Source: Azospirillum ramasamyi
GTDB taxonomy: Bacteria > Pseudomonadota > Alphaproteobacteria > Azospirillales > Azospirillaceae
Direction: 5' to 3'
Assembly: GCF_003233655.1 (NCBI RefSeq)
Contig: NZ_CP029833.1
Location: forward strand, 372,001-436,000
DNA length: 64,000 nucleotides
A program made the position numbers and the translations under genes. This document shows positions 27,261-40,907 of the stretch, piece by piece (the stretch's first letter is position 1; each line of letters opens with the position of its first letter). The notes under the pieces are model-generated. The model was not told the DNA's origin, searched no databases, and saw nothing but the letters and a program-made list of their open reading frames with translations.

Positions 27261-30200
27261 CTATTCCGCGGGGGCGGCGATGGCGGCGCGGCGGCGGCGG
27301 CGCATGGCCAGCCGTTCCAGCGTCAGATAGACCACCGGCGTGGTGTAGAGCGTCAGCATCTGGCTGACCAGCAGGCCGCCGATGATGGCGACGCCCAGCG
27401 GGCGGCGGATCTCGCCGCCGGTGCCGTAGTCGAAGGCCAGCGGCACCGCGCCCAGAAGCGCCGTGACCGTCGTCATCATGATCGGGCGGAAGCGGACCAG
27501 CCCGGCCTCGCGGATCGCCTCCAGCGGCGACAGGCCGCGCTCGCGCTCCGCCTCCAGGGCGAAGTCGATCATCATGATGGCGTTCTTCTTGACGATGCCG
27601 ATCAGCAGGATGATGCCGATCAGCGCCACGATCGACAGGTCGTAGCCGGTCAGGATCAGCGCGATCAGCGCCCCCAGCCCGGCCGAGGGCAGGGTCGACA
27701 GGATGGTCAGCGGGTGGATCAGGCTCTCGTACAGAATGCCCAGCACGATGTAGATGGTGATGAGCGCCGCCAGGATCAGCAGCGGCTGGCTGGACGAGGA
27801 TTGCTGGAAGGCGCGCGCGTCGCCCTGGAAGCCGGCGCGGATGCTGGCCGGCATGCCGATGTCCTCCGCCGCGCGCTGGATCACCTCGGTCGCCTGGGAC
27901 AGCGAGACGCCGGGGGCGAGGTTGAAGGTCAGGTTGGCGACCGGGAAGCCGTTCTGGTGCTGGATGCTGGCCGCCTGGTTGCCGATGGTGACGCGCGCCA
28001 CCGTCGACAGCGGCACCATGCCGTCGCGGCCCGACACATGGATGCGCTTCAGGTCGTCGGGGCCGAGCGCCTCGCGCGGGTCGACCTCCAGCACCACCTT
28101 GTGCTGGTTCTGCGCCAGATACATGGTGGAGACCTGCCGCTGGCCGAAGGCGTCGTAGAGCGTCGCCGCCAGCTCGCTCAGGGACACGCCCAGCCGCGCG
28201 GCGGCGTCGCGGTCGACGATCACGTTGGCCTGGATGCCGCCGTTCTGCCGGTCGTTGGCGACGTCCACCAGCTCCGGCAGGGTGCGCATCTTCTCCACCA
28301 GCTTGGGCGCCCATTCGTTCAGCGCGCCGATGTCGGGATCCTGCAGGCTGTAGCGGTACTGGCTGCGGCCCTGGAAACCGCCGACGCGGATGTCCTGCAC
28401 CGGCGACAGGAACAGCTGCACCCCCGGCACCCGGCCGGCGCGCATGCGCAGCCGCTGGGTGACGGTCGCCAGATCCTCGCGCTCCGCCTTCGGTTTCAGG
28501 GCGATGTAGATCTGGCCGGAATAGCTGCCGCCCGGCCCGCCGCCGCCGATGGTGCCGCCGACGCTGGCCACCGCCGGATCGCCGGCCACCGCCTCCTGAA
28601 GCGCGCGCTGGCGCGTGACCATGGCCTGGAAGGAGATGTCCGGCGGCGGGTCGCTGAAGCCCATCAGCAGGCCGGTGTCCTGCTGCGGCACCAGGCCCTT
28701 CGGCACCTGCCCGTAGAGCCAGACGCTGACGCCGATGATGGCGAAGGTCGCCGCCAGCATGGTGCGGCGGTGGGCCAGCACCCAGTCCAGCCCGTCGGCA
28801 TAGAGGCCGAACAGCCGGTCGCCGATCCAGCTCAGCCCGCGGGCGAGCCGTCCGGGCGGTTTGCGCTCCGCCTCCGGCAGCAGCAGGTGGGCGCACATCA
28901 TCGGGGTCAGGGTCAGCGACACCACCGCCGACACGGCGATGGCGACCGACAGCACCACGGCGAACTCGCGGAACAGCCGGCCCTGGAGGCCGCCCATGAA
29001 CAGGATGGGGATGAAGACGGCGACCAGCGACAGGCTGATCGACACCACGGTGAAGGCGACCTGCCGGGATCCCTTGATCGCCGCCTCCAGCGGCCGGACG
29101 CCCTTCTCGATGTGGCGGACGATGTTCTCGATGACGACGATGGCGTCGTCCACCACGAAGCCGACCGAGATGGTCAGCGCCATCAGCGAGAAATTGTCCA
29201 GGCTGTAGCCGGCGATCCACATCACCCCGAAGGTGCCGGCCAGCGACAGCGGCACCGAGGCCGCCGGGATGACCGTCGCCCACAGGCGGCGCAGGAACAG
29301 CGCCATCACCATCACCACCAGCGCCACGGTGATCGCCAGCGTCTTCTGCACGTCGTCGATCGAGGCGCGGATGGTCGGCGTGCGGTCGGTGCGCACCGAC
29401 AGCTCCACACCGGGCGGCATCCAGCTGCGCAGGGTCGGCAGTTCGGCGTTCACCCGGTCCACCGTCTCCACCACGTTGGAGCCCGGCTGCTTCTGGATGT
29501 TGATGAGGACCGCGCGCTGGCCGTCCTGCCAGGCGGCGGTGCGGCTGTTCTCCGGCGCCTCGATCACCTCGGCGACATCGCCGAGGCGGATGGTGGCGCC
29601 GTCCTTCTGCGCCACGATCAGCCGGCGGTAGGCGTCCGCGCCGAACAGCTGGTCGCTGGCGCCGATCGACCAGAACTCGTGCGGGCCGTCGAAGCTGCCC
29701 TTCGGGCCGTTGGCGTTGGCGCGCGAGATGGCGCTGCGGATCGTCTCCAGGCTGACGCCCATGTTGGCGGCGGCGGTGGCGTTGACCCGCACGCGCACCG
29801 CCGTCTTCTCCGCCCCGTTGATGGAGACCTGGGCCACCCCCTCGATCTGGCTCAGCCGCTGGCCGATCACGCTGTCGGCCAGATTGTACAGCTCCGACGG
29901 CGCCAGGGTGGTGGAGGTCATGGCGAGCGTCAGCACCGGCGCGTCGGCCGGGTTGATGCGCCGCATCTTCGGCGGGCTCGGCAGGTCGGCCGGCAGGTCG
30001 CCGCCGGCGGCGTTGATCGCCGCCTGAACGTCGCGCGACGCCGCCTCGACGTCGCGGTCCAGGTCGAACTGCACGATGACCGACGTGCTGCCGAGCCTGC
30101 TGTTCGACGTCATCTCGGTGATGCCGGCGATGCGGGACAGCCGCCGTTCCAGCGGCGTGGCGACGGAGGCGGCCATCGTCTCCGGGCTGGCGCCGGGAAG

Positions 30201-30380
30201 CGAGGCGGAGACCACGATGGTCGGGAACTCCACCTGCGGCAGCGGCGCCACCGGCAGGAAGCGGTAGGCGACCATGCCGAGGATCATCAGCCCGATCATC
30301 AGCAGCGAGGTGCCGACCGGCCGTGCGATGAAGGGGGCGGAGAGCGACAGCTTGGACGGAGAGTTTGCGGGGGATGCCAT
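27261..30380 (-). CDS. mdtC: RND multidrug efflux permease, MdtC-like
   Basis: A 1039-residue inner-membrane proton/drug antiporter of the HAE1/AcrB family. It has TM1 (GTSLLMIGLMILGMVAYRFL), two large periplasmic loops, and the TM4 proton-relay motif ISVGFVVDDAIVVIENIVRH with paired Asp. The C-terminal repeat has GIVKKNAIMMIDFALEAERE and IMMTTVTALLGAVPLAFDYG. It is the second of two RND subunits encoded in a row, as in MdtBC, which form a mixed trimer. It starts 7 nt after the mdtB stop. Length is normal. Drugs or metals exported are unknown. Confidence 0.92.
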   Translation of the reverse strand: MASPANSPSKLSLSAPFIARPVGTSLLMIGLMILGMVAYRFLPVAPLPQVEFPTIVVSASLPGASPETMAASVATPLERRLSRIAGITEMTSNSRLGSTSVIVQFDLDRDVEAASRDVQAAINAAGGDLPADLPSPPKMRRINPADAPVLTLAMTSTTLAPSELYNLADSVIGQRLSQIEGVAQVSINGAEKTAVRVRVNATAAANMGVSLETIRSAISRANANGPKGSFDGPHEFWSIGASDQLFGADAYRRLIVAQKDGATIRLGDVAEVIEAPENSRTAAWQDGQRAVLINIQKQPGSNVVETVDRVNAELPTLRSWMPPGVELSVRTDRTPTIRASIDDVQKTLAITVALVVMVMALFLRRLWATVIPAASVPLSLAGTFGVMWIAGYSLDNFSLMALTISVGFVVDDAIVVIENIVRHIEKGVRPLEAAIKGSRQVAFTVVSISLSLVAVFIPILFMGGLQGRLFREFAVVLSVAIAVSAVVSLTLTPMMCAHLLLPEAERKPPGRLARGLSWIGDRLFGLYADGLDWVLAHRRTMLAATFAIIGVSVWLYGQVPKGLVPQQDTGLLMGFSDPPPDISFQAMVTRQRALQEAVAGDPAVASVGGTIGGGGPGGSYSGQIYIALKPKAEREDLATVTQRLRMRAGRVPGVQLFLSPVQDIRVGGFQGRSQYRYSLQDPDIGALNEWAPKLVEKMRTLPELVDVANDRQNGGIQANVIVDRDAAARLGVSLSELAATLYDAFGQRQVSTMYLAQNQHKVVLEVDPREALGPDDLKRIHVSGRDGMVPLSTVARVTIGNQAASIQHQNGFPVANLTFNLAPGVSLSQATEVIQRAAEDIGMPASIRAGFQGDARAFQQSSSSQPLLILAALITIYIVLGILYESLIHPLTILSTLPSAGLGALIALILTGYDLSIVALIGIILLIGIVKKNAIMMIDFALEAERERGLSPLEAIREAGLVRFRPIMMTTVTALLGAVPLAFDYGTGGEIRRPLGVAIIGGLLVSQMLTLYTTPVVYLTLERLAMRRRRRAAIAAPAE

Positions 30381-30387
30381 GGGCGGT

Positions 30388-33300
30388 CTACTCCGCCGCC
30401 GCGCGGCCGGGCGCCCGGTCGTTGCCCGGCAGGGCCGCCGCCTTCGCCCCCGGCCGCAGCCAGCGCCGCAGGCGGGTGCCCATCCGGTCCATGTAGAGAT
30501 AGACCACCGGCGTGGTGTAGAGCGTCAGCACCTGGCTCAGCACCAGCCCGCCGACGATGGCGATGCCCATCGGCTTGCGCAGCTCCGATCCGGTGCCGTT
30601 CTCCAGCGCCAGCGGCAGGGCGCCGAGCAGGGCCGCCATCGTCGTCATCATGATCGGGCGGAAGCGCAGCAGCGACGCCTCGTAGATCGAGCGCTCCGGC
30701 GCCATGCCCTGGTGGCGTTCGGCCTCCAGCGCGAAGTCGATCATCATGATGGCGTTCTTCTTGACGATGCCGATCAGCAGCACGATGCCGACCAGCGCGA
30801 TCAGCGACAGGTCGTGGCCGGTCGCCATCAGCGCCAGAAGCGCGCCGATGCCCGCCGACGGCAGGGTCGACAGGATGGTGATGGGGTGGATCGTGCTCTC
30901 GTACAGGATGCCGAGCACGATGTAGACCGCGACCACCGCCGCCAGGATCAGCCAGGGCTGGTTTTCCAGCGAGGTGCGGAACTCCGCGGCGGTGCCGGCG
31001 AAGCGGGCGGTCGCGGTTTCGGGCATGCCGATGCTTTCGCGCGCCTCCTGGATGGCCGCCACCGCCGCCCCCAGCGAGACGCCGGGCGCCACGTTGAAGG
31101 ACAGCGTGACGGAGGGGAACTGCCCCTGGTGGGTGATGACCAGGGGGGCGGTCCTGCGCTCCATCGACACCACCGCGCCCAAGGGCACCACGCCGCCGTT
31201 GCCCGATTTCACATAGATCTTGGACAGGGAGGACGGGTCCATCTGGAAGGACGGCTCCACCTCCAGGATCACGCGGTACTGGTTGGTCTGGGTGTAGATG
31301 GTGGACACCTGCCGCTGGCCGAAGGCGTCGTACAGCGTGTCGTCGATGGCCTGCGGCAGCACATTCAGGCGGGACGCGGCGTCGCGGTCGATGTCCAGGT
31401 AGACCTGCAGCCCGTCCGGCTGCTGGTCGGTCGCCACGTCGGTCAGCTCCGGCCTCGCGCGCAGCGCCTCCAGCAGGCGCGGGGTCCAGTTCTCCAGCTC
31501 CTTCGGGTCGGCGTCCTGCAGGACGTATTGATACTGGGTGCGGCTGACGCGGCTGTCGATCTGCACGTCCTGCACCGCCTGCATGAACAGCGAGACGCCT
31601 TTCAGGTCGGCGGTGGCGGCGCGCAGCCGGGCGATGATCTCCTCGGCCGAGGCGCTGCGCTGGTCGCGCGGCTTCAGCGCGATGGTCAGGCTGCCGGTGT
31701 TGGTGGTGGCGTTCACCGTGCCGGTGCCGACGAAGCTCGCCACCCCCGCCACGTCGGGGTCGCGGCGCACGATGTCGGCGACCTCGCGCTGGCGCTCCGC
31801 CATCGCCTTGACCGAGATGGACGGCGCGGCGTCGGTGACGCCGATGATGACGCCGGTGTCCTGCTGCGGCAGGAAGCCCTTGGGCACCACGGTGTAGAGG
31901 TAGAGCGTGGCGGCAAGCGTCGCGATGGTGAACAGCAGGGTCGCCAATTGGTGGCGCAGCACGACGCGCAGCGAGGCGGCGTAGCCGTTCAGCAGCGCCT
32001 CGAAGCCGCGTTCGGTCCAGCGGAAGAAGGCGTTGGGTTTGCTCTCCGTCTCGGGCTTGAGCAGGCGGGCGCACATCATCGGCGTCAGCGTCAGCGAGAT
32101 CACCGCCGACACCAGCACCGCGATGGAGAGCGTCATGGCGAATTCGCGGAACAGCCGGCCGACCACGCCGCCCATGAACAGCAGCGGGATGAACACGGCG
32201 ATCAGCGACAGGGTCAGCGACACGATCGTGAAGCCGATCTGGCGCGCGCCCTTCAGCGCCGCCTGCAGCGGCTTCTCGCCCTTCTCGATGTAGCGGACGA
32301 TGTTCTCGATCATCACGATGGCGTCGTCGACGACGAAGCCCGCCGCGATGGTCAGCGCCATCAGCGACAGATTGTCCAGGCTGAAGCCGCACAGCGCCAT
32401 GATGCCGAAGGTGCCGATCAGCGACAGCGGCAGCACCGCCGCCGGGATCACCGTCGCCCACGCCTTGCGCAGGAACAGGAAGATCACCATCACCACCAGC
32501 CCGGCGGTCAGCACCAGCGTCTTCTGCACGTCGGCGACCGAGGCGCGGATGGTTTCCGTCCGGTCGGTCAGCACCGCCATCTTGATCTGCGGCGGCAGCG
32601 TGGCCTCCAGCGAGGGCAGCAGCTCGTGGATGCGGTCCACCGTCTCGATGATGTTGGCGCCGGGCTGGCGCAGCACGTTCAGCAGAACCGCCGGCCTGCC
32701 GTCATGCCAGGCGGCCAGCCGGGTGTTCTCCACCGAATCGACCACGGTGCCGATGTCGGACAGCCGCACCGGGCCGCCGTTCTTGTAGGCGACGATGATC
32801 GGGCGGTAGGCGGCTGCGGTCTCGATCTGGTCGTTGACGCCGATCGACCAGGACTGGCGCGGCCCGTCGAAGCTGCCCTTCGGCGCGTTGACGTTGGCCT
32901 GGGTGATGGTGGTCCGCACATCCTCCAGCGTCAGCCCGAGACCGGCGACGGCGGCGGGGTTGACCTGCACGCGCACGGCCGGGCGCAGGCCGCCCTCGAT
33001 CCCGACATAGCCGACGCCCTCGACCTGGGACAGCTTCTGCGCCAGCAGCGTGTCGGCGGCGTCGCTGACGGTTTCCAGCCGCAGGGAGTCCGAGCTCAGC
33101 GCCAGCACCATGACCGGCGTGTCGGCCGGGTTGACCTTGTCGTAGACCGGCGGGTTCGGCAGCCCCCTGGGCAGCGTGCCGGATGCGGCGCTGATCGCCG
33201 ACTGCACGTCCTGCGAGGCGGCGTCGATGTCGCGGGAGAGGTCGAACTGCAGGGTGATGACCGACAGCCCGAAGGAACTGGTCGAGATCATCGAGGAGAT

Positions 33301-33528
33301 GCCGGGGATCTGCCCGAGCTGCCGTTCCAGCGGCGCGGTGACGGAGGAGGCCATCACGTCCGGGGCCGCCCCCGGCAGCTGGGTGGTGACGCGCACCGTC
33401 GGGAAATCGACCGTCGGCAGCGACGAGATCGGCAGCGTGCTGTAGCCCAGCAGGCCGAGCAGCACGACCGCCAGCATCAGCAGCCCGGTGGCGACCGGCC
33501 TCAGGATGAAGGGGGCGGAGATGTTCAT
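30388..33528 (-). CDS. mdtB: RND multidrug efflux permease, MdtB-like
   Basis: A 1046-residue HAE1-type RND permease. The N-terminus MNISAPFILRPVATGLLMLA is the standard start, the TM4 motif reads IAAGFVVDDAIVMIENIVRY, and the C-terminal half has GIVKKNAIMMIDFALEAERH and IMMTTMAALLGALPLALENG. It overlaps the adaptor gene mdtA by ATGA (33525-33528) and is followed directly by mdtC, the MdtABC operon plan. The outer-membrane TolC partner is not in the window. The two permeases are clearly related to each other but differ in the linker and tails, so they are not a recent duplicate. Confidence 0.92.
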   Translation of the reverse strand: MNISAPFILRPVATGLLMLAVVLLGLLGYSTLPISSLPTVDFPTVRVTTQLPGAAPDVMASSVTAPLERQLGQIPGISSMISTSSFGLSVITLQFDLSRDIDAASQDVQSAISAASGTLPRGLPNPPVYDKVNPADTPVMVLALSSDSLRLETVSDAADTLLAQKLSQVEGVGYVGIEGGLRPAVRVQVNPAAVAGLGLTLEDVRTTITQANVNAPKGSFDGPRQSWSIGVNDQIETAAAYRPIIVAYKNGGPVRLSDIGTVVDSVENTRLAAWHDGRPAVLLNVLRQPGANIIETVDRIHELLPSLEATLPPQIKMAVLTDRTETIRASVADVQKTLVLTAGLVVMVIFLFLRKAWATVIPAAVLPLSLIGTFGIMALCGFSLDNLSLMALTIAAGFVVDDAIVMIENIVRYIEKGEKPLQAALKGARQIGFTIVSLTLSLIAVFIPLLFMGGVVGRLFREFAMTLSIAVLVSAVISLTLTPMMCARLLKPETESKPNAFFRWTERGFEALLNGYAASLRVVLRHQLATLLFTIATLAATLYLYTVVPKGFLPQQDTGVIIGVTDAAPSISVKAMAERQREVADIVRRDPDVAGVASFVGTGTVNATTNTGSLTIALKPRDQRSASAEEIIARLRAATADLKGVSLFMQAVQDVQIDSRVSRTQYQYVLQDADPKELENWTPRLLEALRARPELTDVATDQQPDGLQVYLDIDRDAASRLNVLPQAIDDTLYDAFGQRQVSTIYTQTNQYRVILEVEPSFQMDPSSLSKIYVKSGNGGVVPLGAVVSMERRTAPLVITHQGQFPSVTLSFNVAPGVSLGAAVAAIQEARESIGMPETATARFAGTAAEFRTSLENQPWLILAAVVAVYIVLGILYESTIHPITILSTLPSAGIGALLALMATGHDLSLIALVGIVLLIGIVKKNAIMMIDFALEAERHQGMAPERSIYEASLLRFRPIMMTTMAALLGALPLALENGTGSELRKPMGIAIVGGLVLSQVLTLYTTPVVYLYMDRMGTRLRRWLRPGAKAAALPGNDRAPGRAAAE

Positions 33529-34889
33529 GAGGGCTGCCGTCCCTCACGCGGGGCGTCGCCGGCAGGGGAGGCTGCAGGGGAGGCTGCAGGGGCGGGGGCG
33601 GGCGGGGCGCCGGTGTTCTCGCGCTGCTGCTGGCGCTCGCGCCGCCGCTCCTCGCGCGCGGCCGGGTCGGACGCGGCGCCGGCGGGCGGTGCCATCGCGG
33701 GGGCGGCGGTGCCGGCGGTGCCGACGGGGGCGGCCGACGCGATGGGCTCGACGATGCGGATCTTGGAGCCGGGCTGCAGGCGGTACTGGCCGTCCACCAC
33801 CACGCGCTCGCCGGGGGTCAGGCCCTCGTCGATGATGGCCTTGTTCTCCTCCTGGTGGGCGACCTTGATCGGGCGCTGCTCCACCGTCAGGTCGTCCTTG
33901 ATGACATAGGCGTAGGTGCCTTGCGGCCCGCGCTGCACCACCGTCGAGGGCACCGTGGTGGCGTCGCGGCGGATGGTGGACAGCAGGCGGACATTGACGA
34001 ACTGGCCGGGCCACAGCTTCTGCGGGTCGTTGGGCATCTGCGCCTTCAGGCGGATGGTGCCGGTGCCGCTGTCGATCAGGTTGTCCACCACGGCGAGGGA
34101 GCCGGTGTCGAGCACGCGCCGGCCGTCGCGGTCCCGCACCTCCACCGTGACCGGCCCCTGCGCCTGGGCGGCCAGCACGGCGGGGAGCTGCTTCTCCGGC
34201 AGGGTGAAGAGCACGGTGATGGGCTGGATCTGGGTGATGGTGGCGATGCCGCTCTGGTCGCTGGCCCGCACCACGTTGCCCTGGTCGACGTTGCGCAGGC
34301 CGATGCGCCCGCTGATCGGCGCGGTGATGGTGGTGTAGTTCAGCTGGACCCGCACCGCCTCGATCGCCGCCTCGTCGGCGCGGATCTGCGCTTCGTACTG
34401 GGCGACCTGCGCGCGCTGGGTGTCGACCGTCTGGCGCGACGCGAATTCCTTCAGGCTCATGTTGCGCTCGAGGTCGCGCCGGGCGTTGGCGAGCAGCGCC
34501 TCGTTCTGCGCCTTCTTCGCCTCGGCCTGGGCGAGCTGGGCCTGGAGCGCGCGGGAATCGATGGTCGCCAGCAGGTCGCCGGCCTTCACCAGCTGACCTT
34601 CCTGGAGCGAGACGCGCTGCAGCTCGCCATCGACGCGGGCGCGCACGGTGACGGTGTTGAAGGCCTGGATCGTGCCGATGCCGTCGAACCAGATCGGAAC
34701 GTCCTCGCGCGCGACGGTGCCGGCCTGGACCGCCACCACGGCGTTGCCGGCGCCGCGGGGACCGGGAGGGGCGCCCGCGGCGGGTGGTGCCGCGGGAGGG
34801 GCCAGCTTCTGCTGAACCGCGTAGCCGACGCCGCCGACCAGACCGGCGAGAACCACACCGGTGACCACCGGCTTCCAACGAATCGTCAT
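33525..34889 (-). CDS. mdtA: RND efflux membrane fusion protein, MdtA-like
   Basis: A 454-residue periplasmic adaptor. It has an N-terminal anchor (about 8-27: VVTGVVLAGLVGGVGYAVQQ) and then a P/A/G-rich stretch. The lipoyl halves TVRARVDGELQRVSLQEGQL and TITAPISGRIGLRNVDQGNV surround an α-hairpin (AQAEAKKAQNEALLANARRD), followed by β-barrel and membrane-proximal domains (to about 390: LTPGERVVVDGQYRLQPGSK). The last roughly 60 residues are low-complexity (A/P with an ERRRERQQQREN patch), longer than in MdtA of enterics. Start ATG at 34889 (MTIRWKPVVTG); the long in-frame upstream extension has no family match. First gene of the mdtABC operon, divergent from gntR. Confidence 0.9.
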   Translation of the reverse strand: MTIRWKPVVTGVVLAGLVGGVGYAVQQKLAPPAAPPAAGAPPGPRGAGNAVVAVQAGTVAREDVPIWFDGIGTIQAFNTVTVRARVDGELQRVSLQEGQLVKAGDLLATIDSRALQAQLAQAEAKKAQNEALLANARRDLERNMSLKEFASRQTVDTQRAQVAQYEAQIRADEAAIEAVRVQLNYTTITAPISGRIGLRNVDQGNVVRASDQSGIATITQIQPITVLFTLPEKQLPAVLAAQAQGPVTVEVRDRDGRRVLDTGSLAVVDNLIDSGTGTIRLKAQMPNDPQKLWPGQFVNVRLLSTIRRDATTVPSTVVQRGPQGTYAYVIKDDLTVEQRPIKVAHQEENKAIIDEGLTPGERVVVDGQYRLQPGSKIRIVEPIASAAPVGTAGTAAPAMAPPAGAASDPAAREERRRERQQQRENTGAPPAPAPAASPAASPAGDAPREGRQPS

Positions 34890-35075
34890 GACTTTCCCGA
34901 CGCTTGCCGGAAGGGCCGCAGGGCCGCCCCGGTCTTTCCGTATGCCCTTGATACGGGGCGGCGGTGCGGATTCGTCGGGACGCGCCGCAAAAAATTTCCG
35001 GGTTCGGCCGCGGCGCCCCGCCAAACGCATACACCGATATGCATTGCCTTGACCGCCGACGGGGTAACGGGCATG

Positions 35076-35087
35076 ATGATGCATCAT
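35076..35087. promoter_or_regulatory. Palindromic operator upstream of gntR
   Basis: ATGATGCATCAT is a perfect 12-bp palindrome 43 nt before the gntR start and about 190 nt from the divergent mdtA start. The same core (GATGATGCATCA) is found again at 35872-35883 before the kinase gene, and I noticed no other copy in the window. A shared, symmetric site at both genes of the cluster is what is expected of the GntR operator, with autoregulation. Confidence 0.6.
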
Positions 35088-35130
35088 ACAACGAACGGCG
35101 ACAGCCGGCGACGGCGCAAGGAGGGGGAAG

Positions 35131-35814
35131 ATGAGCGGGTTCGATCTGACCCTTCTCGACCATGACAACCTCGGCGGCACGATCTATCAGAAGCTGTGCG
35201 AGGCGCTGATGAAGGGGGCGTTCAAGCCGAACGACCGCCTCAAGATCCGCGATCTGGCCGAACGGCTGGGGACCAGCGTCACCCCGGTGCGCGACGCCAT
35301 CCTGCGTCTGGTGCAGGATCAGGCCCTGGTGCTGCGCTCGCCGCGCGACATCCGCGTTCCGATGCTGACCCGCGCCGCCTATCTGGAAATCCGCGACATC
35401 CGCGTCAGCCTGGAGGGGATGGCCGCCGCCCGCGCCGCCGGGATGGCCACGCCCGCCCAGATCGCCGCGCTGGAGGCGCTGCTGGCGCGCAACGAGGATG
35501 CGATGGCCGCCGGCAACACCGCGCTGGCCACCGAACTCAACCAGATCTTCCACTTCAAGCTGGCGGAGATCGCCGACATGCCGGTGCTCGGCGACATCCT
35601 GCGGCGTTTGTGGCTGCAGATGGGACCGCTGATCGCCGACGTCTATGGCGGGGCCGGGCGCACGATGATCGACCATCACTATCCGCTGATGGACGCCATC
35701 CGCCGCCATGACGGCCCGGCCGCCGCCATCGCCATCCAGGCCGACATCCTGCTGGCCAGCGGCCCGATCCTGGAGCGGATCGACGCGGAGTCCCCGGAAT
35801 CCCCCGCCTCCTGA
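35131..35814 (+). CDS. GntR-family (FadR/FCD) transcriptional regulator
   Basis: A 227-residue regulator. The N-terminal winged helix (about 12-75) has GTIYQKLCEALMKGAFKPND, LAERLGTSVTPVRDAILRLV and a short wing. The all-helical FCD ligand domain (about 85-215) contains LEIRDIRVSLEGMAAARAAG, the metal/ligand-type LNQIFHFKLAEIADMPVLGD and the closing DHHYPLMDAIRRHDGPAAAI with conserved His. A strong GGAGGGG lies before the ATG. It precedes a kinase and a phospho-lyase on the same strand, after a 106-nt gap with its own palindrome, so it likely senses their substrate or product. It most likely represses, but activation cannot be excluded. Confidence 0.92.
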   Translation: MSGFDLTLLDHDNLGGTIYQKLCEALMKGAFKPNDRLKIRDLAERLGTSVTPVRDAILRLVQDQALVLRSPRDIRVPMLTRAAYLEIRDIRVSLEGMAAARAAGMATPAQIAALEALLARNEDAMAAGNTALATELNQIFHFKLAEIADMPVLGDILRRLWLQMGPLIADVYGGAGRTMIDHHYPLMDAIRRHDGPAAAIAIQADILLASGPILERIDAESPESPAS

Positions 35815-35871
35815 CCCGATCGCCGCATCGCCGGCCCCCGGACCTCCCCGCCTCCCCAGTCCATCCATGAC

Positions 35872-35883
35872 GATGATGCATCA
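35872..35883. promoter_or_regulatory. Second copy of the GntR-cluster palindrome
   Basis: GATGATGCATCA contains the perfect 10-bp palindrome TGATGCATCA (35874-35883), 37 nt before the kinase start and 60 nt after the gntR stop. It repeats the site at 35076-35087. Its position suggests a separate regulated promoter for the two enzyme genes. Confidence 0.6.
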
Positions 35884-35920
35884 AACATTGAACGCCTCGA
35901 ACGACAAGGAGACATCGGAC

Positions 35921-36958
35921 ATGATCCCCGGTGACGTTCTGACCACCGCCGCGCCGCCGATCTCCCCCGACGAGGCCGGCGCCATGATGCGGCGCTGTTT
36001 CGGCGTGACCGGCAGCGTCCGCAGCTTGAGCAGCGAGCGCGACCGCAACTTCCACATCGCCGCCGCCGGAGGGCAGGGCTATGTGCTGAAGTTCACCAAC
36101 CCGGCGGAACCGCAGCCCGTCACCAGCTTCCAGACCGGGGCGATGCAGCATGTCACCGCGCGCGATCCCTCCCTGCCGGTGCCGCGCGTGGTGCCGACCC
36201 TGGACGGCGAGGCCCAGACGACCGTCCAGGTCGACGGCCAGACCATGGTGCTGCGGCTGCTGACCTATCTCGAAGGCACGCCGCTCCATGCCGCGCCGGC
36301 CTCGCCGGGGCTGATGCGGTCGCTGGGGGCGACGCTGGCCCGGCTGGATCTGGCGCTGGCCGACTACGCGCATCCCGGTTCGGAGCGCGATCTGCTGTGG
36401 GACATCACGCGCACCGCCAGCGTCGCCGACCGGCTGCATTACCTGCCCGACGGCCCGCGCCGCCGGATGGTGGAGCGCTTCGTCGACCGCTTCACCGGAC
36501 AGGTGGCGCCGCGGCTGCCCGCCCTGCGGCATCAGGTGATCCACAACGACCTCAACCCGCACAACGCGGTGGTCGATCCGGTCGGGCACGAGACCGTCAC
36601 CGGCATCATCGATTTCGGCGACGCGCTGAAGGCGCCGCTGGTCAACGACCTGGCGACGGCGCTCGCCTACCACGTCACCAGCGGCGAGACGCCCTTCGGC
36701 TCCCTGGTCGAGATGACCCGCGCCTACAATGCCGTGCTGCCGCTGACCCCGGAGGAGGTGGAACTGCTGCCCGATCTGGTGGCGGCCCGGCTGGCCCTGA
36801 CCATCGGCATCACCAGCTGGCGGGCGGCCGAATATCCGGCGAACGCCCCCTATATCCTGCGGAATTCCGAACGCGCCTTCGCCGGGCTGGAAAAGCTGAC
36901 CGGCGACGAGGCCGCCACCGCGCACCGCCTGCTCCATCTCGCCTGCCAGAGAGTGTGA
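35921..36958 (+). CDS. Hydroxylysine kinase-like aminoglycoside-phosphotransferase family kinase
   Basis: A 345-residue small-molecule kinase of the APH/choline-kinase fold, closest in style to hydroxylysine kinase (HYKK/AGPHD1). The N-lobe has the ATP-binding strand SLSSERDRNFHIAAAGGQGY with Lys in YVLKFTNPAE. The catalytic loop is VIHNDLNPHNAVVD (His208, Asp210) and the metal motif GIIDFGDALKA (Asp231). The DRNFHI...YVLKFTN block and IDFGDAL are typical of the HYKK/homoserine-kinase-II-like branch. AAGGAG stands 9 nt before the ATG at 35921, which excludes longer versions. It is followed after 6 nt by a phospho-lyase-type class III enzyme. Substrate: 5-hydroxylysine, ethanolamine or another amino alcohol. 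Confidence 0.8.
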   Translation: MIPGDVLTTAAPPISPDEAGAMMRRCFGVTGSVRSLSSERDRNFHIAAAGGQGYVLKFTNPAEPQPVTSFQTGAMQHVTARDPSLPVPRVVPTLDGEAQTTVQVDGQTMVLRLLTYLEGTPLHAAPASPGLMRSLGATLARLDLALADYAHPGSERDLLWDITRTASVADRLHYLPDGPRRRMVERFVDRFTGQVAPRLPALRHQVIHNDLNPHNAVVDPVGHETVTGIIDFGDALKAPLVNDLATALAYHVTSGETPFGSLVEMTRAYNAVLPLTPEEVELLPDLVAARLALTIGITSWRAAEYPANAPYILRNSERAFAGLEKLTGDEAATAHRLLHLACQRV

Positions 36959-36964
36959 ACCGTC

Positions 36965-38281
36965 ATGACCATGATCAACGCCTATGCGCCCGCCTCCGCC
37001 GGTTCCCTGCCGGAGCGCGAGCGCGCCCTGATCGCCCGCCGCGAGAAGCTGCTCGGCCCGGCCTACCGCCTGTTCTACGCCGACCCCATCCATGTGGTGC
37101 GGGGGGAGGGCTCCTACCTCTATGACGCCGACGGCAACCGCTATCTGGACGCCTACAACAACGTCGCCTCGGTCGGGCATTCGCGGCCCGAGGTGGTGGA
37201 GGCGATGGCGAAGCAGGCGGCGGTGCTGAACACCCACACGCGCTATCTGACCGACGGCATCCTCGACTTCGCCGAAGCCTTCCTGGCGGAGTTCCCGCCC
37301 GAACTGTCGCACCTGATGCTGACCTGCACCGGCAGCGAGGCCAACGATCTGGCCCTGCGCGTCGCCCGCGTCCACACCGGCGGCACCGGCGTCGTCATCG
37401 CCCACAACGCCTATCACGGCGTCACCTCGGCGCTGGCGGAGATGTCGCCCTCGTTGGGCGCCGCGGTGAAGCTGGGCGACCATGTCCGCGTGGTGCCGTC
37501 GCCCGACAGCTACCGCATCCCGGAGGCGGAGGTCGGCGCCGCCTTCGCCCGCTCGGTCGAGGAGGCCATCGCCGATCTGCGCGAGAAGGGGATCGCCCCG
37601 GCGGCGCTGCTGGTCGACACCATCTTCTCCAGCAGCGGCGTCTTCACCGATCCGGCCGGCTTCCTCGCCCCGGCGGTGGAGGCGATGCGCAAGGCCGGCG
37701 GCATCTTCATCGCCGACGAGGTGCAGCCCGGTTTCGGCCGGCTCGGCACCGATATGTGGGGCTTCGCGCGCCATGGGCTGGTGCCCGACATCGTGACGGT
37801 CGGCAAGCCGATGGGCAACGGCCACCCGGTGGCGGGGGCCATCTTCCGGCCGGAGGTGGTCGAGGCGTTCGGCAAGAACCAGCGCTATTTCAACACCTTC
37901 GGCGGCAACCCGGTGTCCTGCGCCGCGGCTCATGCGGTGCTGCGCGTCATCAAGACCGACCGGCTGCAGGAGAATGCCCTGGCCGTCGGCACCGAGATGA
38001 TCGACGGCCTGCGCGCACTGGCCGCCAAGCACGACCTGATCGGCGACGTGCGCGGCAGCGGCCTGTTCATCGGCGTCGAGATGGTGCGCGACCGCACCCT
38101 CAAGACCCCGGCGCCGGAGGAGACCGCCCGCGTGGTGAACGACATGCGCCGGCGCCGGGTGCTGATCAGCGCCACCGGGCAGGAAGGGCACATCCTGAAG
38201 ATCCGCCCGCCGCTGGTGTTCTCCTCCGACGACGCCAAGCTGTTCCTCGCCACGCTGGACGAGGTGCTGGCGGCGCTGTGA
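36965..38281 (+). CDS. Class III PLP enzyme of the phospho-lyase (AGXT2L) branch
   Basis: A 438-residue PLP enzyme of the class III aminotransferase fold. PLP lysine is Lys281 in the block VGKPMGNGHPVAGAI. That GKPMGNGHP form, together with FNTFGGNPVSCAA, is typical of ethanolamine-phosphate and 5-phosphohydroxylysine phospho-lyases rather than of true aminotransferases. Other family blocks are LTCTGSEANDLALRVARVHT, HNAYHGVTSALAEMSP and GGIFIADEVQPGFGRLG. It would remove phosphate and ammonia from the kinase product, giving an aldehyde (2-aminoadipate semialdehyde from hydroxylysine). The gene starts 6 nt after the kinase. An ordinary ω-aminotransferase activity cannot be excluded. Confidence 0.85.
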   Translation: MTMINAYAPASAGSLPERERALIARREKLLGPAYRLFYADPIHVVRGEGSYLYDADGNRYLDAYNNVASVGHSRPEVVEAMAKQAAVLNTHTRYLTDGILDFAEAFLAEFPPELSHLMLTCTGSEANDLALRVARVHTGGTGVVIAHNAYHGVTSALAEMSPSLGAAVKLGDHVRVVPSPDSYRIPEAEVGAAFARSVEEAIADLREKGIAPAALLVDTIFSSSGVFTDPAGFLAPAVEAMRKAGGIFIADEVQPGFGRLGTDMWGFARHGLVPDIVTVGKPMGNGHPVAGAIFRPEVVEAFGKNQRYFNTFGGNPVSCAAAHAVLRVIKTDRLQENALAVGTEMIDGLRALAAKHDLIGDVRGSGLFIGVEMVRDRTLKTPAPEETARVVNDMRRRRVLISATGQEGHILKIRPPLVFSSDDAKLFLATLDEVLAAL

Positions 38282-38434: not shown

Positions 38435-39085
38435 TCAGCCGGCCAGCCCGGCGGCCAGATTGACCCCCAGCGCCAGCACCGCCGTGTTGAACAGGAAGGA
38501 CAATGTGCCGTGCATCAGCACCAGCCGGCGCATGGCGGCGTTGCGGGTGGTGACGTCGGATACCTGCGCCGTCATGCCGATGGTGAAGCTGAAATAGAGG
38601 AACTCCAGATAGTCGGGAGCGTCGTTGCCGGGAAAATCCAGCGGCCGCCCCCCTTGCGGTTCACCGTTCAGCCAATAGTCATGGGCGTAATGCTGGGCGA
38701 AGAAGATGTGCAGGAAGCCCCAGGACAGCAGGACCGTCGCCGCCGCCAGCCCCGCCGACAGCCCTTCGTCGGAGGAACCCTTGGCCGACATCAACTCGAC
38801 CACGATGGAGGCCAGCGCGATCAGGGAGGCCAGCACCGCCCCGGTCAGCACGCCCCATTTGCCGGGATCGAGCAGCTTGGCCCGGCGGCGCATCGACGCC
38901 ACGGTCGCCCGGCTCATCTGGATGCCGGCCATCACGATGTAGACGACGACGCCCGAATCCCACCCGATCAGCAGGGTGGTGGACAGGCGCAGCCACGCTG
39001 CCCCGGCAGCGCCGACGGCGAACGCCACCGCCAGCGCGCCCACCAGGGACGGGCGGTTGCGGAGATGGGCGAGGCTGTGGCGCAT
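38435..39085 (-). CDS. DUF1345 family membrane protein
   Basis: A 216-residue inner-membrane protein with about five hydrophobic segments. The family blocks are seen: WDSGVVVYIVMAGIQMSRAT near the N-terminus, ILLSWGFLHIFFAQHYAHDY-like sequence (here VLLSWGFLHIFFAQHYAHDY), and the C-terminal DYLEFLYFSFTIGMTAQVSD followed by HGTLSFLFNTAVLALGVNLA. DUF1345 has no known biochemical role. It lies 43 nt downstream of the DedA-ATP-grasp gene on the same strand and may be co-transcribed with it. Confidence 0.88.
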   Translation of the reverse strand: MRHSLAHLRNRPSLVGALAVAFAVGAAGAAWLRLSTTLLIGWDSGVVVYIVMAGIQMSRATVASMRRRAKLLDPGKWGVLTGAVLASLIALASIVVELMSAKGSSDEGLSAGLAAATVLLSWGFLHIFFAQHYAHDYWLNGEPQGGRPLDFPGNDAPDYLEFLYFSFTIGMTAQVSDVTTRNAAMRRLVLMHGTLSFLFNTAVLALGVNLAAGLAG

Positions 39086-39128: not shown

Positions 39129-40907
39129 TCAGTTGGAGGCCGGGTAGAGCGGAAGCAAGCTCTGCTGGCGGCGCTGGTAGCTGACCAGCTCCCAGGCGGT
39201 CAGCGGCTTCGCGCCCTGCGCCCGGCAGGCGTCGGCCACCTCGAACATCAGGGCCTGCTGGTGGAACAGGGTGGCGTAGGCGGCGCCCAGCCGGAATTCC
39301 GGATCCCACATGTGGATGGCCTCGGCGCCTGCGCCGTTCACCTCGATGATGCGGAAATCCTCGCCCATCGCCAGCCGCTCCACCGAGGCGAAGCGCACGT
39401 CGAAGCGGCCGAAATGGAAGCCCGGCATCTGGTCGGCGATCTCGTCGAAACGCGCGGTCAGCGTCGCGGTGACGTGTCCGCAGGCATCCTTGTAGAGCCC
39501 GCCGACCCGGCTGCTGCCGACCAGAGACAGCCGCACCGTCCGGCCCGCCGCCGGCACCTCGTCCAGCCGGCCGGCCAGCGCCTCGTGATGCAGGTCGGCC
39601 TTCCAGGAGGCGCGGGGGTCGGCGGCGATCAACTCGCGCAGGCTGGACCGGCCGTCGCCCACCACATGGGGGAAATAGCGGAAGGTCATGGAGAAGATGC
39701 GGCCGTGCCGCTCGCCGGGCTTGCGGACGTAGAAGATGCCGGCCTCGCCCGCATACTCCACATGCTCCTGCAGGATCACCCGCGCTTCGGCCGGGAAGCC
39801 GGCGAGATAGGCGCGCAGGTCGGCCGCATCGCGCACCAGCCGCACGCCGATGCCGCGCCAGCCGATGTCCGGCTTGGCGACCAGCGGGAAGGACAGGCCG
39901 GCGCCGGACGCCAGCCGGTCGAGCGCCGCCGGGGTCAGCGACGGGCGGTTGGTCAGCGCCATGGAACGCGCCGCCCACCGGCGCGCCGCCGGGCCGATCA
40001 GGTCCATGCAGGCGATCTTCGATTCGCCCAGCAGCCCGCCGGCCTCGATGGAGGGGTTGGCGGCGGTCGGCAGGGTGACGCTGCGGTAGCGGACGCCCAG
40101 GGCCAACCACTGGACGGCCAGCGGGATGTAGAACAGCAGCGGCGGAATGCGCTCCGCCCAGCCGATGGTGGGGGCGCCGGCCGGCACCACCGGCAGGCCG
40201 GGCAGGGCGAGGGCGCGCGGCGCGGGATTGCAGTGCAGCGCCTCGCGCAGGCCGCTGGGCAGATGCGGCTCGACCCTGGCCCGGAGGCGGGCGAACGCCG
40301 CGCCGGCGATGGACTGCGCCCGTTTGGTGCGCAGGACGACCAGCAGGGCCGCGCAGCCGATGCCGATCACCTGCACCTGGACCGCCGCCGCCTCCAGCGA
40401 CGAGGTCATCAGCGTCAGCAGAAGCCCGACATGCACCCCCGCCGTCACCAGGGTGATGACGATGAAGCGCAGGAACGGCACCCGCATCACGCCGCAGGCG
40501 AAGTAGGTCGGGAACAGGACGCCGGGAACAATCCGGCAAGTCACCAGCGTCGGCAGCAGGTTCTTCTGCAATGCCACGCGGCAGCGCTCAAGCATCGGAC
40601 CCTCGCTCCGCCGCCGGATCCAGCCGACCCGCAGGGACAACAGCCCAAGGACATAAATGAAAAGGTCGCCGATAACGATTCCGCACAGCAACGTAATGGC
40701 GGTTACGCCGATGCTGACCGTACCGACGCTGACCAGACTGGCCCCCACCGCAATTGCAACGTCTTCGTGCAGAAGCGTAAGCAAAGCAAGGCCCAGCAAC
40801 AGAGGAAAACCGGCGAGGGCGGTTATTGGTTGCAATGCAGCAAACACGGGCGGGATGTCCAAGGATGAACGGCGATCAGTGCGCCATCGGCAAAATTGCA
40901 TAGGCAA
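39129..40907 (-). CDS. DedA-like membrane domain fused to an ATP-grasp domain
   Basis: A 592-residue fusion. Residues about 25-195 are a DedA/VTT (SNARE-associated) membrane domain: EDVAIAVGASLVSVG, GIVIGDLFIYVLGLL with Gly80-Asp81, the re-entrant RIVPGVLFPTYFACGVMRVP with Arg125 and Pro128, and a last TM to about 192. Residues about 325-570 form an ATP-grasp domain: FPLVAKPDIGWRGIGVRLVR (Lys345), RVILQEHVEYAGEAGIFYVR, the loop GDGRSSLRELI, FHFGRFDVRFAS and the metal-binding Glu522/Asn524 in IIEVNGAGAE. All expected ATP-grasp residues seem present, so the domain should be active, making an amide, peptide or thioester bond. DedA proteins move or flip lipids. The substrate is unknown. The first roughly 95 codons and upstream DNA are more AT-rich than the rest. 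Confidence 0.8.
   Translation of the reverse strand: MPMQFCRWRTDRRSSLDIPPVFAALQPITALAGFPLLLGLALLTLLHEDVAIAVGASLVSVGTVSIGVTAITLLCGIVIGDLFIYVLGLLSLRVGWIRRRSEGPMLERCRVALQKNLLPTLVTCRIVPGVLFPTYFACGVMRVPFLRFIVITLVTAGVHVGLLLTLMTSSLEAAAVQVQVIGIGCAALLVVLRTKRAQSIAGAAFARLRARVEPHLPSGLREALHCNPAPRALALPGLPVVPAGAPTIGWAERIPPLLFYIPLAVQWLALGVRYRSVTLPTAANPSIEAGGLLGESKIACMDLIGPAARRWAARSMALTNRPSLTPAALDRLASGAGLSFPLVAKPDIGWRGIGVRLVRDAADLRAYLAGFPAEARVILQEHVEYAGEAGIFYVRKPGERHGRIFSMTFRYFPHVVGDGRSSLRELIAADPRASWKADLHHEALAGRLDEVPAAGRTVRLSLVGSSRVGGLYKDACGHVTATLTARFDEIADQMPGFHFGRFDVRFASVERLAMGEDFRIIEVNGAGAEAIHMWDPEFRLGAAYATLFHQQALMFEVADACRAQGAKPLTAWELVSYQRRQQSLLPLYPASN

Follow-up and report, generated by a model that had tools for sequence, protein, structure and literature searches.

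DedA proteins are nearly universal, and the cargo is known for few of them. The question raised by the locus considered here is what a DedA protein might be doing when found within the same polypeptide as an ATP-grasp ligase, i.e., an amide-forming enzyme. That locus lies within a 64,000-nucleotide stretch of the Azospirillum ramasamyi genome, the whole of which is referred to here as the window. An earlier note had described positions 39129-40907 as a single frame encoding both domains, which is borne out, with the frame, for which no strand had been given, found on the minus strand. As counted from an upstream TTG, it encodes 592 amino acids and is open throughout. Its start position is uncertain, codon 16 being ACG (a non-start) in most relatives. 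A GTG at codon 21 (40847), which is common to the gene's close relatives, is the likely start. The gene and its parts are thus:

39129-40907, minus strand: fused DedA/VTT - ATP-grasp gene, a 592-codon frame with likely start GTG 40847, codon 21
40323-40820, minus strand: DedA/VTT domain, residues about 30-195 (PF09335, helices in the model, partner-DedA profile)
40761-40766, minus strand: E48-D49, acidic tip of the first re-entrant helix (conservation in alignment)
40665-40667, minus strand: D81, the conserved DedA acidic residue (of G80-D81), invariant in 46 of 46 DedA rows
40533-40535, minus strand: R125, second re-entrant helix (R-x-x-P-G), from the alignment; the second Arg of undecaprenyl phosphate (UndP) types is Leu131 here
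40173-40322, minus strand: variable linker, residues about 196-245, Arg-rich and probably cytosolic (low conservation, mostly raised dN/dS, charge count)
39132-40172, minus strand: ATP-grasp ligase module, residues about 246-592 (separate relatives at 41-49% identity; cyanophycin synthetase/Ddl fold match)
40089-40142, minus strand: hydrophobic helix 256-273, a possible membrane contact, seen in the model and also in stand-alone ligases
39873-39875, minus strand: K345 of VAKPD, the Lys predicted to bind ATP, invariant in all 82 ligases
39651-39659, minus strand: G417-D418-G419 loop (GDGRSSL), both Gly invariant and the Asp in 81 of 82
39399-39401, minus strand: D503 of FGRFDVRF, predicted to be a ligand of Mg, invariant in all 82 ligases
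39336-39344, minus strand: E522-x-N524 of EVNGAG, likewise predicted to be ligands of Mg, invariant in all 82 ligases
38435-39085, minus strand: DUF1345 membrane protein (PF07077, E=1.5e-57), 43 nt downstream of the fusion and on the same strand

The residues which had been singled out previously, i.e., G80-D81, R125-x-x-P128-G129, K345, GDGRSSL (417-423), E522, and N524, are all found at these positions. The DUF1345 gene adjoins the fusion in most Azospirillum loci and, as based on the neighbor table, does not do so in other lineages.

Is this one gene, or instead two genes joined by a frameshift or assembly error? Genomes of 61 relatives, 37 of them Azospirillum, were searched, and the fusion is present in 20 of those 37, consisting of one intact frame in 18. 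That openness, along with dN/dS values of about 0.3-0.45 in both domains (pairwise, Nei-Gojobori; mostly higher in the linker), rules out an artefact, and both domains are, as judged from these same sequence comparisons, under purifying selection. The two misgivings attached to the earlier note, that is, that such an error might join two genes or that key ligase residues might be lost among relatives, are both answered, with 18 open Azospirillum frames and catalytic residues kept in 82 of 82 ligases. Two copies nevertheless are broken, one (L013) having an in-frame TGA and the other, from A. thermophilum (L038:6003-7733), having its parts in two overlapping frames. The gene is also dispensable, since it is absent from about half of the Azospirillum genomes sampled. 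Surveying more widely for the same fusion, as had been proposed, found it in other Alphaproteobacteria (Magnetospirillum and Hyphomicrobiales), in Burkholderiales, in three Bacteroidota bins, and in one Paceibacterota bin. Phages and E. coli, searched for the protein, gave no match.

As to the ligase, the full ATP-grasp set that had been placed at residues about 325-570 is indeed complete, but that extent is too small, the conserved unit spanning residues about 246-592. With Pfam this part scores below threshold against RimK (15.5 bits vs. 21), while NCBIfam and PDB sequence searches yield weak matches to cyanophycin synthetase and to glutathione-synthase-like ATP-grasp proteins. The NCBIfam cyanophycin synthetase equivalog, for example, gives 18 bits vs. 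a cut-off of 850, with only residues 337-445 aligned. The Pfam cut-off is missed because the ATP-grasp part is too divergent, and fold is the stronger test. A structure was predicted from an alignment of 18 fused homologues; alignments of 106 and 94 rows, mixing fused and separate proteins, were not used for this since in these the rows of separate DedAs ran on into the ligase part. Mean pLDDT is 82, with values of about 90-97 across most of the ligase core. The predicted ligase half matches cyanophycin synthetase, GshAB, and Ddl structures at E of 5e-10 to 1e-6 and at 10-23% identity, with a Foldseek probability of 1.00 versus 7ta5, 7txv, 3ln6, and Ddl structures, i.e., the model has an ATP-grasp fold. 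K345, E388, G417, G419, D503, E522, and N524, which include the predicted ATP-binding Lys and Mg ligands, are invariant in all 82 ligases. The family is marked as well by a GGLLGESK motif and by an N-terminal hydrophobic helix of its own. Retention of that helix in stand-alone ligases suggests a membrane-associated substrate, and the Arg-rich segments that follow the DedA helices, by charge count, would place the ligase in the cytosol, which is where ATP is found.

The membrane half matches PF09335 (VTT/DedA) over residues 58-165 (E=1.2e-9; 39.2 bits vs. a cut-off of 33.9), and it is thus a DedA-family domain. E48 is kept in every alignment row covering it, as is D49 except for two rows which have Glu instead, and R125 and P128 are conserved in all rows covering those sites. 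What might such a domain carry? According to the DedA survey of Todor et al. 2023 (PMC10127716), DedA proteins that flip undecaprenyl phosphate need two Arg at the tip of re-entrant helix 2, i.e., R130 and R136 of YghB, the second of which is thought to bind the phosphate of that lipid. The acidic residues at the tip of re-entrant helix 1 that also are expected of these UndP flippers are present in the window's DedA domain. Of the two Arg, R125 is kept, but Leu131 is found at the second position. Among the fused proteins of the alignment, 20 of 22 lack that second Arg, whereas 22 of its 24 separate DedAs have it. The NCBIfam UptA model scores 11.6 bits, which is below its cut-off of 250. With the second phosphate-binding Arg absent, and as based on the criterion of PMC10127716, undecaprenyl phosphate is an unlikely cargo, and the earlier note's naming of it as a possible DedA substrate loses ground as a consequence. 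A lipid lacking phosphate would seem, from these residues, to fit better. The DedAs partnering this ligase in fact represent a subfamily of their own, with an H/L-E-D-x-A motif and with profile E-values of 1e-37 or lower for separate partners vs. 8e-18 for the best of eight paralogues tested from the window's own genome.

Komagataeibacter, Paracoccus, Variovorax, and Photobacterium are among the bacteria in which the ligase module (about 246-592) is found also as a separate protein. When 85,000 species genomes were scanned, at least 276 ligase relatives were found, of which the best 80 were kept as loci, and to these seven more were added, for a total of 87. By DedA profile, DedA and ATP-grasp are fused in 21 of the 87; a separate DedA gene sits directly upstream of the ligase in 28, often overlapping by a few bases; three Paracoccus loci have a DedA gene about 1 kb off and convergent; and 35, a few of them cut off by a contig end, are without a DedA nearby. 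On a maximum-likelihood tree of ligases, two of the fused loci (L111 and L113) fall inside of a separate-DedA clade, away from the other fusions, which implies that fusion arose at least twice. Given 28 loci in which the genes adjoin and two or more origins of the fusion, DedA and ligase form a conserved functional pair.

Neighboring genes supply a hint as to what that pair acts upon. Genes in the 87 loci were called by codon usage, which closely reproduced the Paracoccus annotation, and then were clustered and named; this approach was used because shadow frames of GC-rich genes swamp neighbor clustering. PF13444, i.e., the OlsB/OlsF acyltransferase of ornithine-lipid synthesis, lies no more than four genes from the ligase in 24 loci and is its immediate neighbor in six separate arrangements, namely Comamonadaceae, L074, L092, and the fused L058, L111, and L113, with matches to OlsB down to E=2.4e-51 and to OlsF down to 3e-130. 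In L111 and L113 the order is fused DedA~ATP-grasp, OlsB, and then an OlsA-like acyltransferase. By our own informal estimate, these six adjacencies are not due to chance since a genome of several thousand genes has one or two such genes. Other lipid translocases also stand in DedA's place. That is, LplT lies beside the ligase in DedA-less Comamonadaceae (E=2e-134), and a stand-alone MprF flippase domain (E=9e-54, flippase part only) lies beside it, convergent rather than co-directional, in a DUF1989 clade lacking DedA. Those Ols-type neighbors, together with this swapping of LplT or MprF for DedA, point to aminolipids. In several lineages the pair is accompanied by an alpha/beta hydrolase, which in 8 of 34 dereplicated loci lies no more than two genes away and in some has a lipobox-like N-terminus.

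Various other neighborhoods can be described as well. The MprF flippase domain without its synthase part is seen at L074:7508-8422 and in L109, L114, and L117, with DUF1989 and OlsB/OlsF-like genes near some of these. An operon consisting of a PF14518 diiron-type oxidase, a PrmC-like methyltransferase, the ATP-grasp, an OlsB-like protein, and LplT is found at L041:7092-12077 and in other Variovorax, Ramlibacter, and Polaromonas, and looks like an undescribed aminolipid pathway that makes do without DedA; the window's own genome, searched for the PF14518 protein, has none. YHS-domain, DinB-like, and TANGO2-like genes follow DedA plus ATP-grasp in eight loci (L078, L082, L091, L107, L116, L087, L120, and L123). 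In Acidiphilium a large TPR-sulfotransferase comes straight after the pair (L080:9129-10844 and L084:9093-10907), and could have to do with a sulfated or sulfonated product. A Komagataeibacter ABC transporter was considered as a lipid exporter and rejected, its best matches being FetAB iron exporter models.

Turning to the window's own genome, OlsB (E=1e-90) and then OlsA (E=4e-84) are found side by side on another contig, both scoring slightly below curated cut-offs, and the proposed lipid substrate, given that pair, is probably available. PF13444 is present in all 14 of the sampled ligase-bearing genomes vs. 245 of 398 (62%) overall, a co-occurrence that lends slight support, given how common OlsB is and given that the 14 genomes include several which are mutually related. 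Within the window, positions 27261-35180 encode two tandem RND permeases plus a membrane-fusion protein (MdtABC-like from sequence). Positions 35708-38281 encode, separately, an APH-type kinase and a class-III aminotransferase which correspond to opposite ends of PRK06148, a long fused protein, and which likely represent a kinase/phospho-lyase pair. A link between these two genes and the fusion was considered and rejected: a similar-looking Burkholderiales neighbor in L058 is only 28% identical, lies beside Phos_pyr_kin, and reads as housekeeping, and the adjoining kinases are unrelated.

The reading that we favor, tentatively and at not quite an even chance, is by analogy with MprF: the fusion would be a tRNA-independent counterpart which ligates an amino group or amino acid onto the head of an aminolipid and then flips the product. 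What we infer, that is, is the chemistry of ligation, the identity of the lipid, and flipping along with its direction, as follows. Synthesis of ornithine lipid by OlsB and OlsA, at the inner leaflet, would come first. The cytosolic ATP-grasp domain would activate a carboxylate as an acyl phosphate and couple that acyl phosphate to an amine, the head group so changed being that of a membrane lipid of the ornithine-lipid type, i.e., an N-acyl amino acid. The ligase would amidate the free carboxylate of this lipid, e.g., with taurine or an amino acid, or would instead add an amino acid to its free amine. The DedA domain would then move the product to the outer leaflet. The earlier note's suggestion of a lipid or lipid-linked molecule being modified with an amino acid or similar group at the membrane is, in this limited sense, strengthened by OlsB/OlsF neighbors, by DedA swaps, and by the genome's own OlsB-OlsA.

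A number of observations do not sit comfortably with aminolipid modification. The fusion's neighbors in the window are not lipid genes, with OlsB-OlsA found on another replicon, and OlsB is adjacent in only three fused loci, two of which are from the separately fused clade. The recurrent YHS, DinB-like, TANGO2-like, DUF1989, and Haem_oxygenas_2 neighbors are unexplained, and then there is the absence of the gene from about half of the sampled Azospirillum genomes. That absence, along with the two broken copies, might even be read as indicating a DedA and a ligase joined by chance and merely tolerated, with no shared function. Such an accident is hardly credible, however, being largely refuted by the pair's recurrence, with 28 loci of adjacent genes and two or more independent fusions, and by purifying selection on both domains. 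An ordinary phospholipid head such as that of phosphatidylglycerol (PG) could instead be what the ligase aminoacylates, with DedA flipping the product. This would be the direct functional analogue of MprF/LpiA, and diacylglycerol kinase-like and PlsC-like genes are found near some pairs, the former following one adjacent pair. The nearby acyltransferases nonetheless are mostly of the OlsB/OlsF type and, as PG has neither carboxylate nor amine, an ester would be needed, which is unusual for this ATP-grasp group, leaving a phospholipid substrate improbable.

Similarly improbable is a soluble product of the ligase, be it an N-acyl amide, a dipeptide, or a small natural product, with DedA serving in export or in ion/pH balance. 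In Variovorax and Komagataeibacter the ligase does keep company with a PF14518 diiron oxidase-type protein and a methyltransferase, resembling small-molecule biosynthesis. Those PF14518 clades, however, are without DedA, the Comamonadaceae ones still have OlsB and LplT following, and the hydrophobic helix of stand-alone ligases suggests a substrate which is membrane bound. Quite improbable, lastly, is action on an undecaprenyl-linked or peptidoglycan-related molecule, much as with a membrane D-Ala-D-Ala ligase, and with DedA recycling undecaprenyl phosphate. UptA-group DedA proteins flip that lipid, according to PMC10127716, the window's DedA has a weak UptA similarity, and the ligase fold is Ddl-like; furthermore, one adjacent pair has a UppP/BacA gene after it, and several of the Acidocella pairs have DacA-type peptidases ahead of them. 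Against this, the second phosphate-binding Arg is missing in nearly all of the fused proteins, the window's included, the DacA neighbors occur in only one syntenic group, and Mur genes are not recurrent.

How does the favored reading, i.e., that of ligation onto an aminolipid followed by flipping, compare with known systems? Like MprF and LpiA, the fusion combines in one chain a membrane translocase, which is N-terminal, with a cytosolic enzyme, which is C-terminal and would modify a lipid head. Unlike with these, its translocase is DedA, its enzyme is an ATP-grasp which should need no tRNA, and its probable substrate is an aminolipid; Pfam and NCBIfam searches of the fusion for LPG_synthase_TM and aminoacyl-tRNA-dependent transferase domains found no match. 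By analogy it would work like MprF, yet it lies outside of the MprF family. LpiA is accompanied by a periplasmic lipid hydrolase, AcvB (PMC13135905), just as an alpha/beta hydrolase accompanies some relatives of the fusion or pair. Like bacterial DedA proteins (COG0586, UptA, YqjA/YghB), the fusion has the VTT domain, the acidic re-entrant helix 1, and the first Arg of helix 2. It differs from them in that Leu, in its own subfamily, and in being joined to an ATP-grasp. Among the DedA fusions named by Todor et al. (PMC10127716) are those with rhodanese, PAP2, and disulfide oxidoreductase. Ligase fold and catalytic residues are shared with cyanophycin synthetase, GshAB, and D-Ala-D-Ala ligase, but without the partner domains of CphA or GshAB. 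As with OlsB-OlsA or OlsF, OlsE, and OlsG, the fusion would act on the same lipid, with synthesis genes beside the ligase in several lineages, and Ols family models give no match to the fusion protein itself.

Among described ornithine-lipid head-group modifiers, the literature searched revealed no ATP-grasp ligase, and in a 2024 review of aminolipids it is only with acyl-histidine that ATP-grasp enzymes come up. The ornithine-taurine lipid of Gluconobacter (cerilipin) is a known lipid and, by analogy, is of a kind within reach of such a ligase; that literature revealed no enzyme producing it. Within full-text literature, subscription papers and preprints lying outside of this, no description of a DedA~ATP-grasp architecture was found, the sole match to the terms being a cyanobacterial genome paper, nor was DedA found along with ornithine lipid. 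This agrees with the earlier note's knowing of no described function for the architecture.

A DedA covalently joined to an amide-forming enzyme points to that DedA's own pathway, and its cargo thereby becomes testable. If aminolipids indeed are what is modified, then this would be a further class of membrane-lipid modification, as found in plant-associated, marine, and acid-dwelling bacteria, with an enzyme that could be found from sequence alone and with the make-and-flip strategy of MprF invented again using different parts. A broader possibility, which we consider to be somewhat unlikely, is that of a widespread, tRNA-independent lipid synthase-flippase, one in which an ATP-grasp conjugates ornithine-type lipids with an amino acid or with an amine, e.g., taurine, and is fused or coupled to DedA in one group but to an MprF-type flippase or LplT elsewhere. 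If true, then this would supply the missing enzyme for lipids of the ornithine-taurine type, and aminolipids would be the cargo of some DedA proteins.
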